Origin: Bdellovibrio sp. ZAP7 | Lineage (GTDB): Bacteria; Bdellovibrionota; FAC87; UBA2466 | Assembly (NCBI GenBank): GCA_945878405.1 | Contig: CAMCTJ010000002.1 | Location: forward strand, 67,099-131,098 | Direction of reading: 5' to 3' | DNA length: 64,000 bases | In this document: positions 20,185 through 31,239 of the stretch, piece after piece | Numbering within the stretch: the first letter of the stretch is position 1 | Layout of the letters: the number at the start of each line of letters is the position of its first letter | Translations under genes and position numbers: made by a program | The notes under the pieces: model-generated | The model's input: the letters and a program-made list of their open reading frames with translations, nothing else | The model's database searches: none | What the model was told of the DNA's origin: nothing

Positions 20185-21192
20185 TTAACGGTTGCTTCCG
20201 GGCCAAAAGCCCATAACATCAAGTACTTCCTTGATAGTCTGGGAAGCTATGTTTCGGGCCTTTTGATTGCCCTTTTTAATGATTTCCTCGATATAGGCAG
20301 GCTCTTTCTCTAATTCAGCCCGTTTTTTCCGGATAGGCTCAGACCAAGCGATAATTTGGTCCGCTAGAGCCTTCTTATCGTCAAAACAGGAAAGGGTGGC
20401 TGCCCGGCACTCAGCTTCAATCTGAGTCACCCTCTCTTTTGGGGTGAAAAGCTGGTGATAAGTAAAAACGGGGCAATTTTCAGGATGCCCCGGATCCTCA
20501 CGCCTTGGCCGCTTTGTATCCGTCAGCATTCTGGAAACTTTTTTCTGGATGACTTCAGGGGTATCCGCTAACTCGACAGTGTTTCCATAGCTCTTACTCA
20601 TTTTTCGGCCATCAAGGCCCGGAAGCTTTGCTGTTGGAGTAAGAAGCGGCACAAATTCGGGGAAAATCGGTTTTTTGTAAGTGGCATTAAATCGACGAAT
20701 CAATTCTCGACCCATCTCTAAATGGGGTTTTTGGTCTTCTCCCACGGGAACGTGGGTTGCCTTATACAAGCAAACATCCACCGTCTGTAAAACGGGATAC
20801 GAAAGAAACCCTAAGCTTCCCGTATTCTTCTCACCCAACTCTTGTTTTTGTTCTTTATAGGTAGGGTTTCGCTCGAGCCAACCAACCGAAGTAAACATCG
20901 ATAAAAGAACAGTCAGCTCACAATGTTCGGGGACAGCTGATTGTACGAATAAAGTCGCTTTATCTGGGTCCACGCCCACGCTGAGCCAATCCAGCAAGAG
21001 TTCTCGAGTGTTTTTTCCCACTTCTACTTTGGCGAGCTCTCCCGTGGTGAGCGCATGCAGATCGGCGACCATAAAAAAGCAATCAGCCTGGTTTTGGAGT
21101 TCCAGATAATTAACCAGAACTCCCCAATAGTGGCCTAAGTGAAGGCGACCCGTCGGCCGCATTCCACTAAAAATTCGCTTCGGGTGTTTTAT
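20185..21192 (-). CDS. trpS: Tryptophanyl-tRNA synthetase, apparent AUA start
   Basis: A TrpRS of class I. Reading from ATA at 21192 gives 335 residues beginning M/I-KHPKRIFSGMRPTG, with the HIGH motif as HLGH and the second signature as KMSKSYGN. The first ATG (21162) would remove the KRIFSG segment that forms the first Rossmann strand and is conserved in TrpRS. No ATG, GTG or TTG occurs in frame between that ATG and the upstream stop at 21211. The ATA is 5-6 bases from a GAGGTGG ribosome site inside the htpX end, and ATAA overlaps the htpX stop as ATGA overlaps usually do. This may be true AUA initiation or a base error. Confidence 0.9.
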   Translation of the reverse strand: MKHPKRIFSGMRPTGRLHLGHYWGVLVNYLELQNQADCFFMVADLHALTTGELAKVEVGKNTRELLLDWLSVGVDPDKATLFVQSAVPEHCELTVLLSMFTSVGWLERNPTYKEQKQELGEKNTGSLGFLSYPVLQTVDVCLYKATHVPVGEDQKPHLEMGRELIRRFNATYKKPIFPEFVPLLTPTAKLPGLDGRKMSKSYGNTVELADTPEVIQKKVSRMLTDTKRPRREDPGHPENCPVFTYHQLFTPKERVTQIEAECRAATLSCFDDKKALADQIIAWSEPIRKKRAELEKEPAYIEEIIKKGNQKARNIASQTIKEVLDVMGFWPGSNR

Positions 21193-28906: not shown

Positions 28907-29009
28907 AACCCTATTTAAGAAAAAAATCGAACCTACCGATATTTTATCGTGAGCAGCTAAGGGAAATCCTTACTGCCGATATTTACTTACCTTTTTGGGG
29001 GCTTTGGTT

Positions 29010-29687
29010 ATGGGTGATTTATCAGAATTTGGACAGTTTATTAAAGATGGCGGAACCGCAGGATACGTCATCTTAACAGCCGGTTTTTTTGCTGCTGGAT
29101 TAGCAATTGAACGCTTGATTAGAATTCGCCAGTACTCGGTGGATAGTCGAGCCTTCATGGCAAAACTGAAAAAATATATTTTAAGTGACAATATCGATAG
29201 AGCTATCAGCTTGTGCAATAGCAAGCCTGGTGCTCTGTTACCAAAAGTGCTTAAAGCTGGATTGACTCGGGCCAAAGATTCAGAAGCTGATATTCAAAAT
29301 GCAGTTGATGAAGCAACGCTTGAAGTTCTTCCGAAGCTAGAAGCCCGCTCGCTTTATCTCCCTGTTTTGGCAAACCTTGCAACTCTCTTGGGTCTATTTG
29401 GAACGATTGTGGGTTTGATCATGGCCTTCAAAGGGGGCGATGCTGTTGATGCCGTTCAGAGACAAGCCTTTTTACAAAAGGCGATTGCATTGGCGATGAA
29501 CTCCACAGCGATGGGGATCATGGTTGCGATGCCAGCTCTTTTGGTGAATACATTTTTGCAATCAAAGATCAACGGAATCATTTCAGACATCGATCAATAC
29601 TCGGTGAAGCTTATCAATTTGCTTTCGGCTTCTAAAAAAGGCGGACACGTAGCTTCTTCAGAAGATGATTCTGCAGCAAGCGAGTAA
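29010..29687 (+). CDS. MotA/TolQ/ExbB proton-channel protein
   Basis: A 225-residue proton channel subunit with three membrane helices: residues about 17-35 (GYVILTAGFFAAGLAIERL), about 110-132 (LANLATLLGLFGTIVGLIMAF) and about 150-172. The conserved helix-2/3 segments with the small residues and Thr of the proton path are present. The ATG at 29010 is used; an in-frame TTG at 28995 is possible. Two TolR/ExbD-type genes follow. This one-plus-two arrangement is that of the Myxococcus AglRQS gliding motor and of some Tol/Exb systems. Confidence 0.9.
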   Translation: MGDLSEFGQFIKDGGTAGYVILTAGFFAAGLAIERLIRIRQYSVDSRAFMAKLKKYILSDNIDRAISLCNSKPGALLPKVLKAGLTRAKDSEADIQNAVDEATLEVLPKLEARSLYLPVLANLATLLGLFGTIVGLIMAFKGGDAVDAVQRQAFLQKAIALAMNSTAMGIMVAMPALLVNTFLQSKINGIISDIDQYSVKLINLLSASKKGGHVASSEDDSAASE

Positions 29688-29704: not shown

Positions 29705-30253
29705 ATGGCTGCCAAAAAGCCCAGCTCCAGAACAAATCGATCACGACCAGACGATTCATTGAATCTCACGCCGATGATCGACATGATCACTTGCTTGATG
29801 TTTTACTTGCTCATGTTTGCGAGCGTGATGCCAGTAGTGATTATCGACGCGCCTCTGCCAAAAATTGCAGGCAACGCCGAAGAAGTCAAAAAGGCAAAAG
29901 ATACAAAGAACAAGTTAGAAGTGATGGTGTACCTAACTGCCCAAGGGATTCGCGTTCGCAGTGATGTGGGCGGCGAAAAAACCTTTCCCGTGAGTCAGGA
30001 GGGAAAGTTGCCTACGGACGAAGTTCATAACTTCCTCGTGCAGTTAAAGAGCAAAAGTCCCGATTCACGAGACATCACCTTGATGCCGTCAGATGATACT
30101 CCGTACTATGTGATGGTAGATATCATGGACGCTGCTCGAGAACTGAAAAAAGATGATGCCGGTTATAGGGTTGTTCCCGTTGAAATCATGGGAAAACCAG
30201 AGAGTGAACAATTTAATCGATTGTTCCCGGATGTCAGTATTGGAGGCGTGTAA
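29705..30253 (+). CDS. ExbD/TolR family protein, first copy
   Basis: A 182-residue protein with a short basic cytoplasmic tail, then the single membrane helix LTPMIDMITCLMFYLLMFA carrying the proton-relay Asp, and a periplasmic domain ending with LMPSDDTPYYVMVDIMDAAR. It lies 17 bp after the TolQ-like gene and its stop codon overlaps the next start by one base (TAATG). A partner of the TolQ-like protein. Confidence 0.92.
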   Translation: MAAKKPSSRTNRSRPDDSLNLTPMIDMITCLMFYLLMFASVMPVVIIDAPLPKIAGNAEEVKKAKDTKNKLEVMVYLTAQGIRVRSDVGGEKTFPVSQEGKLPTDEVHNFLVQLKSKSPDSRDITLMPSDDTPYYVMVDIMDAARELKKDDAGYRVVPVEIMGKPESEQFNRLFPDVSIGGV

Positions 30254-30804
30254 TGGCTGGCGGAGGATCAAGTTCAGGCGTTGGAAGCTCTCGTATCGGG
30301 GGGGCTTTTACCCAGAAGATGAAAAAAAGAAATGAGATTGCTGCCGGCTTGAGTCTTACCTCAATGCTGGACATTCTCATGGCGCTTCTTTTCTTCTTGT
30401 TGCAGAACTTCTCATCGGTGAAAAGTGATTTCAGTGTTGGAAAAGATCTCACTCTTCCTTCTTCAAGTGCACTTCAAACCCCAGTGCCCGCCCTTCAGCT
30501 TGTAGTAACTCGTAATGCAATTCTGGTAGACAATAAAGAAGTAGTTCGATTTGAAAATGGGGACATTAAAAAAACAGACCTCATGGGCGACGGGGTAACG
30601 ATTCGCGATTTAGCAATTGAATTAAAAAAGCTTAAAGAACGTTCCCAAGTTCAAAGTGCAGGAGATGATGGCTCTTGGGTGGGAAATATAGTGATGCAAG
30701 CAGACAAAGATCTACCCTTTAGTGTATTGAAAAAAGTGATCTACACAGCAGGAGTTACTGATTTCGTAATGTTCAAACTCGCAGTTCTAAAAAAAGAAGT
30801 CTAA
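30253..30804 (+). CDS. ExbD/TolR family protein, second copy
   Basis: A 183-residue protein with a Gly/Ser-rich N-terminus, a membrane helix SLTSMLDILMALLFFLL (Asp in the TolR position) and a periplasmic domain with MQADKDLPFSVLKKVIYTAG. It differs markedly from the first ExbD, so the two are not a recent duplication. Such heterodimers are typical of PMF motors that couple to large envelope machines. Confidence 0.92.
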   Translation: MAGGGSSSGVGSSRIGGAFTQKMKKRNEIAAGLSLTSMLDILMALLFFLLQNFSSVKSDFSVGKDLTLPSSSALQTPVPALQLVVTRNAILVDNKEVVRFENGDIKKTDLMGDGVTIRDLAIELKKLKERSQVQSAGDDGSWVGNIVMQADKDLPFSVLKKVIYTAGVTDFVMFKLAVLKKEV

Positions 30805-30816
30805 AAGGACTTACTC

Positions 30817-31239
30817 ATTCTAAAAATCCTTGTCACATTTGCTTTGGTGTTCCTCACTCACTCAGGGTGGAGTGCGCCGAATTTACGCGAATTTTCTTTT
30901 GAGTATGTTCAAAATTTAGATCCCTACGAAGTGGTTTCGTGCACGCATGAGAAAGCATCTGTTGGATTCTATGAATGGAATGTAAATTGCGAGGTTCGAG
31001 GAGAAGTGAAGCGTTTTTGGGTTCATCTTGCCGCCAACGAATACGGCAAAACAGGATTTGGAAAAAACGCTTATGAAGTTCTCTATTGGGTAACCAATGA
31101 GGGTGCAAAAAATCACCGTCACAGTTCAACTTCACTTTGGATTCATAACAGTGAAGAAACTAATAAAATGAATCGTCTTGTTTCCTCGCTCGGAGTTGAA
31201 GAAGATAACGCTTACCTTCGGCTTACCTTGAATTTCTAA
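30817..31239 (+). CDS. Small exported protein, apparent AUU start
   Basis: A 140-residue protein. Started at ATT (30817) it reads M/I-LKILVTFALVFLTHSGWSA, a complete signal peptide with a Lys and an alanine cleavage site; AAAGGA lies about 7 bases upstream. The only canonical start in frame near here, TTG at 30844, would cut off the charged start and half the hydrophobic core, and there is no ribosome site near it. The mature part has two Cys (SCTHEK, NCEVRG) and ends in LRLTLNF. It begins 12 bp after the second ExbD and probably belongs to that operon. Its 3' end overlaps the nitronate monooxygenase gene on the other strand. Confidence 0.7.
   Translation: MLKILVTFALVFLTHSGWSAPNLREFSFEYVQNLDPYEVVSCTHEKASVGFYEWNVNCEVRGEVKRFWVHLAANEYGKTGFGKNAYEVLYWVTNEGAKNHRHSSTSLWIHNSEETNKMNRLVSSLGVEEDNAYLRLTLNF

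Follow-up and report, generated by a model that had tools for sequence, protein, structure and literature searches.

At which codon does the last gene of an exbB-exbD-exbD operon begin, and does a start other than ATG, GTG or TTG say anything about initiation in the lineage as a whole? In the window, i.e., the whole stretch of 64,000 nucleotides of genome G000, a freshwater relative of Bdellovibrio, that was analysed, two exbD-like genes are followed by a small gene for a putative exported protein, and a sequence-only reading had placed the start of this gene at an ATT at 30817. Having also read trpS, within 10 kb, as starting with AUA, it offered relaxed initiation in the lineage, systematic sequence error or low-level autoregulation like that of infC and pcnB as explanations. 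The following features of the operon are needed for the argument.

28995–29687, plus strand: ExbB/TolQ/MotA-like proton channel, first cistron of the group (PF01618, E 2e-21)
29705–30253, plus strand: ExbD/TolR-like protein 1 (PF02472, E 1.2e-13)
30253–30804, plus strand: ExbD/TolR-like protein 2 (PF02472, E 7.3e-11), with its TAA stop at 30802–30804, 12 nt before the ATT
30804–30809, plus strand: Shine-Dalgarno sequence AAAGGA, 7 nt before the ATT (duplex −5.9 kcal/mol); AAGGA with a 7-nt spacer also in G002
30817–31239, plus strand: gene for a small, beta-rich, putatively exported protein of 140 residues; open frame with proposed AUU start at 30817–30819 and TAA stop at 31237–31239, with homologues both within the genus and elsewhere in the phylum
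30817–30819, plus strand: ATT, proposed start codon, the sole codon common to the three genus members right after the Shine-Dalgarno region
30817–30876, plus strand: putative Sec-type signal peptide (M)LKILVTFALVFLTHSGWSA, from sequence, hydropathy and an N-terminal helix at residues 2–14 of the structure model
30844–30846, plus strand: TTG, the sole nearby canonical codon, not accepted as start (Shine-Dalgarno duplex +1.0 kcal/mol; h-region truncated and without positive charge)

The ExbB-like gene, the two ExbD-like genes and, as the last member, the small gene follow one another at close spacing on the plus strand. The frame of the small gene is open from the exbD stop through to 31239. Between that stop and the ATT, the only in-frame codons are AAG GAC TTA CTC, and the codons preceding the TTG at 30844 read AAG GAC TTA CTC ATT CTA AAA ATC CTT GTC ACA TTT GCT, with no ATG, GTG or TTG in frame between the exbD stop and 30844. 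At its other end, the small gene shares 17 nt (31223–31239) in a tail-to-tail overlap with an opposite-strand gene that resembles nitronate monooxygenase.

The spacer between AAAGGA and the ATT is CTTACTC, which confirms both the coordinates and the distance of about 7 bases given in the sequence-only reading. The anti-Shine-Dalgarno sequence of the genome, CACCTCCTTTC, is intact and of the usual form, and pairing with it was calculated at −5.9 kcal/mol before the ATT vs +1.0 kcal/mol before the TTG. The former value corresponds to a Shine-Dalgarno sequence of moderate strength and not to an extended one. Given that 2.2% of random positions are preceded by a 5-nt Shine-Dalgarno match at 4–10 nt spacing, the motif by itself is mild evidence for an AUU start.

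Translated from the ATT, the product would begin (M)LKILVTFALVFLTHSGWSA-PNLREF, a regular signal-peptide pattern in which a charged n-region, a hydrophobic core and small residues at the cleavage site are all recognizable from sequence and hydropathy, as they are in the homologues. Translated from the TTG, it would begin MVFLTHSGWSAPN, with the hydrophobic core cut and no positive charge; the highest hydropathy over 10 residues falls from 3.1 with the ATT to 0.59 with the TTG. The claims that the signal peptide is complete from the ATT, and that the TTG cuts it and has no ribosome site, both held. Being the first standard start codon, the TTG is what automatic gene finders pick, and the product would then be shorter and non-exported. 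However, in addition to the missing Shine-Dalgarno sequence and the damaged signal peptide, all homologues carry signal peptides and none begins at this position, including about 25 outside the genus. We consider a start at the TTG highly improbable.

We compared the locus with the two relatives that, with G000, make up the three genomes of the genus: G002 (Lake Lanier MAG LLD_281) and G001 (LLD_190). The sister-species homologue in G002 (L093) is 66% identical, and its gene reads AAC AAGGAC GTTTCT ATT AAA ACT CTC, i.e., AAGGA, a 7-nt spacer and ATT as in G000, with a duplex energy of −5.8 kcal/mol. Both genomes thus have a properly spaced Shine-Dalgarno sequence and no canonical start ahead of the conserved N-terminus. 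The first canonical codon in G002 is a GTG that lies midway through the signal peptide, and none stands in register with the TTG of G000, which further argues against the TTG. Only 4 of the 17 aligned signal-peptide codons are identical between the two species, and in the mature part dN was 0.19 with dS saturated, hence no dN/dS ratio is given. The two ATTs coincide in the DNA alignment; since the signal peptides vary in length, they lie one codon out of register in the protein alignment, where a one-codon signal-peptide indel is needed.

G001 has an ATT at the same place and, in addition, a TTG four codons upstream, both without a strong Shine-Dalgarno sequence (−0.9 and −1.6). Because this upstream TTG is available and neither codon is strongly preceded, G001 does not decide the start. 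The ATT is therefore conserved in all three genomes of the genus, and the properly spaced Shine-Dalgarno sequence in G000 and G002 but not in G001. The case for AUU is carried by the Shine-Dalgarno sequence, its spacing and the ATT conserved in a second species; on this comparative evidence, a start of the small gene at AUU 30817 appears well supported. No base needed correcting and no homologue was found to start at the TTG, the two outcomes that the sequence-only reading had named as refuting it.

A sequencing or assembly error that hides an ATG could be suspected, as G000 is a draft of 24 contigs. Nevertheless, the same ATT occurs in G002 and G001, which are separate assemblies of other species, and the AUA of trpS recurs in five genomes. 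We therefore reject systematic error, which appears exceedingly unlikely at this codon. Checking near-cognate starts across species in this way can tell genuine ones from sequence errors with no experiment needed.

Outside the genus, the signal peptide is headed by an ATG and the neighbouring genes differ, both in a genome of the same order (G014) and for about 25 homologues from across the phylum. As the outgroups have ATG, the change from ATG to ATT is derived. This leads to a reading in which translation does begin at the AUU but the codon serves no regulation: an ATG-to-ATT change that was mildly harmful became fixed because small amounts of the protein suffice, and drift together with shared ancestry accounts for the sister species. 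Only two or three species carry the ATT, its derived state is compatible with such a history, and there is neither an extended Shine-Dalgarno sequence nor a conserved hairpin (see below). On the other hand, the saturated synonymous sites between G000 and G002 imply ample time for reversion to ATG, GTG or TTG had it been favoured, and the Shine-Dalgarno sequence and its spacing were kept. We regard drift as a serious but rather unlikely account.

The order exbB-exbD-exbD-small gene is found in three of three species of the genus, with the same downstream genes in G001 and G002, and not outside it. The gap from the exbD stop to the ATT measures 12 nt in G000, where the small gene has its own Shine-Dalgarno sequence, 23 nt in G002 and 14 nt in G001. 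Reinitiation drops steeply across such distances (PMC10666635). Translational coupling to exbD is thus uncertain, being possible at 12 nt in G000 and doubtful at 23 nt in G002. Raising IF3 lowered reinitiation (PMC2268962), which leaves the idea that reinitiation escapes IF3 unsupported. In G000, a short hairpin predicted at 30795–30812 would join the Shine-Dalgarno sequence of the small gene to the end of exbD; it is no better than in shuffled sequences (z 0.64) and is absent in G002 and G001.

In G000, the ExbD frame opening at 30253 and the ATT at 30817 are both in frame 1, so that read-through of the exbD TAA could in principle fuse ExbD to the small protein. The signal peptide would then be internal, however, and in G002 the two frames differ, making a fusion impossible there. 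The differing frames refute read-through as a conserved mechanism, and we give the fusion in G000 next to no credence.

The lineage does appear to use near-cognate starts in other genes, judging from trpS and infC. The sequence-only reading had assigned an AUA start to trpS, and this was borne out.

20185–21192, minus strand: trpS, with AUA start at 21192–21190 in an ATAA overlap with the htpX stop; Shine-Dalgarno sequence GAGGTG 4 nt upstream

The first canonical codon of trpS, an ATG, falls within the conserved SGMRPTG motif and lies too deep in the gene to be the start. The ATA is kept in five genomes of two genera, namely the three of this genus and two of another genus of the family (G010 and G013), where the neighbourhood sequence differs. 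We infer that one G-to-A substitution within an overlapping ATGA turned the stop from TGA to TAA and the start from ATG to ATA together. The infC gene, on contig C22 of G000 (locus L010, minus strand), served as a positive control: its AUU lies behind a strong Shine-Dalgarno sequence (AGGAGG), overlaps the thrS stop as ATTAA and is kept across the family. An AUU start of infC is also found in E. coli and others.

Does this amount to relaxed start selection? We surveyed 351 orthologue pairs between G000 (about 1.23 Mb covered) and G001 (0.69 Mb) for conserved N-termini that precede every ATG, GTG and TTG. Only infC and trpS showed this in both genomes; the other flagged pairs were traced to overlapping frames, to rRNA, or to a conserved leader or Shine-Dalgarno sequence upstream of a normal start. 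The small gene was not flagged because of the upstream TTG in G001. In a start-agnostic scan based on coding potential and Shine-Dalgarno sequences (about 380 genes, 440 kb), both cases of the window were among the weak candidates, every other candidate either lay within a gene or had a normal start close by, and no further convincing near-cognate start was found. A scan of the same extent (440 kb) for near-cognate codons led by a Shine-Dalgarno sequence revealed no codon-specific excess. As a separate observation outside the window, a gene at G000:C3 that resembles lptF (membrane permease of LPS export) is interrupted near 84622 by an in-frame TGA, where the orthologue in G001 encodes lysine.

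A lineage-wide relaxation through altered IF3, rRNA or initiator tRNA would account for the AUA of trpS and the AUU of both infC and the small gene. Against this stand the restriction to infC and trpS among the orthologue pairs, the lack of a codon-specific excess and the intact anti-Shine-Dalgarno sequence. Moreover, both domains of the G000 IF3 can be aligned with those of solved IF3s, and the protein looks ordinary by this comparison. The proposal of relaxed initiation is hence unsupported, and we judge it very unlikely. With about three near-cognate starts known in roughly half of the G000 genome, such starts are rare, not relaxed, and the closeness of two of these genes, within 10 kb, could be coincidental and needs no special cause.

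The small protein gave no sequence match in Pfam, NCBIfam or PDB. Its structure model (mean pLDDT 77.8) has eight strands and the N-terminal helix, and no PDB fold matched it below E 0.001. It belongs to an unnamed exported-protein family (homologues L100–L125) that occurs across the phylum, including Bdellovibrio, and lies behind exbD only in this genus. Two cysteines of the mature part are conserved in a six-sequence alignment, which would fit export. The absence of an IF3-type match, with infC located on another contig, bears on the proposed autoregulation: like infC of E. coli and others, the small gene has an AUU with a Shine-Dalgarno sequence after an upstream cistron, but what it encodes is no initiation factor, and feedback on its own synthesis is hence not expected. 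Of the proposed low-level autoregulation, low-level expression is plausible and fits precedent, whereas there is no basis for an infC-like autoregulation, the product being an exported protein.

Precedents for conserved non-standard starts in single genes exist elsewhere. The E. coli pcnB gene begins with AUU, which keeps poly(A) polymerase low; it is likewise a single gene other than infC, although unrelated to the one studied here. In Staphylococcus aureus reporters, native AUU and AUA sites with extended Shine-Dalgarno sequences reached about 10% of the AUG level, and cvfC1 (AUU) and ccpN (AUA) are likewise conserved near-cognate starts with low output in a few ordinary genes (PMC13009471). 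Those two have strong extended Shine-Dalgarno sequences and start-site profiling, whereas the small gene has a moderate one (−5.9 kcal/mol). In E. coli reporters, AUU gave about 0.3% of AUG, a value for which PMC10666635 cites Hecht et al. 2017. The Borrelia burgdorferi pncA gene (BBE22) likewise has an AUU before the annotated canonical codon, with an N-terminus needed for protein function; it differs in being experimentally shown and in encoding a cytosolic enzyme rather than an exported protein (PMC13398362). The GTC start of Streptomyces sigR is repressed by IF3 and, similarly, is a conserved non-standard start that limits the output of one operon member; there the codon is different and IF3 repression was shown, while for the small gene we infer it (PMC5472188).

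Together, the comparisons lead us to favour, as the probable explanation, a genus-level weak AUU start, compensated by a Shine-Dalgarno sequence, that keeps the last cistron of the exbB-exbD-exbD operon low and is probably IF3-sensitive. The AAAGGA at good spacing, just past the exbD stop, would place fMet-tRNA on the AUU at 30817. IF3 would discriminate against this weak codon, resulting in a low output of the exported protein relative to the upstream ExbB- and ExbD-like proteins, and initiation may benefit from coupling to exbD. The AUU may have been selected for, or at least tolerated, in the genus in which the gene sits behind exbD. A broader scheme would unite infC, trpS and the small gene, whose near-cognate starts lie at or just behind a preceding stop: post-termination ribosomes aided by a Shine-Dalgarno sequence would initiate on AUU or AUA, and the weak codon would filter coupled, low-level translation under IF3 control. 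We consider this scheme doubtful.

The AUU start of the small gene, weak and genus-level as we read it, is another case of an already known type, of which there are few in the G000 genome. Conserved AUU and AUA starts outside infC are few; none was found for this phylum in the literature searched, and the small gene adds one. Gene finders restricted to ATG, GTG and TTG cut its signal peptide, so that an exported protein seems cytosolic, and in the same way trpS would be deprived of the beginning of its nucleotide-binding fold. Low output would be fitting for an accessory exported protein encoded behind a proton-channel complex.
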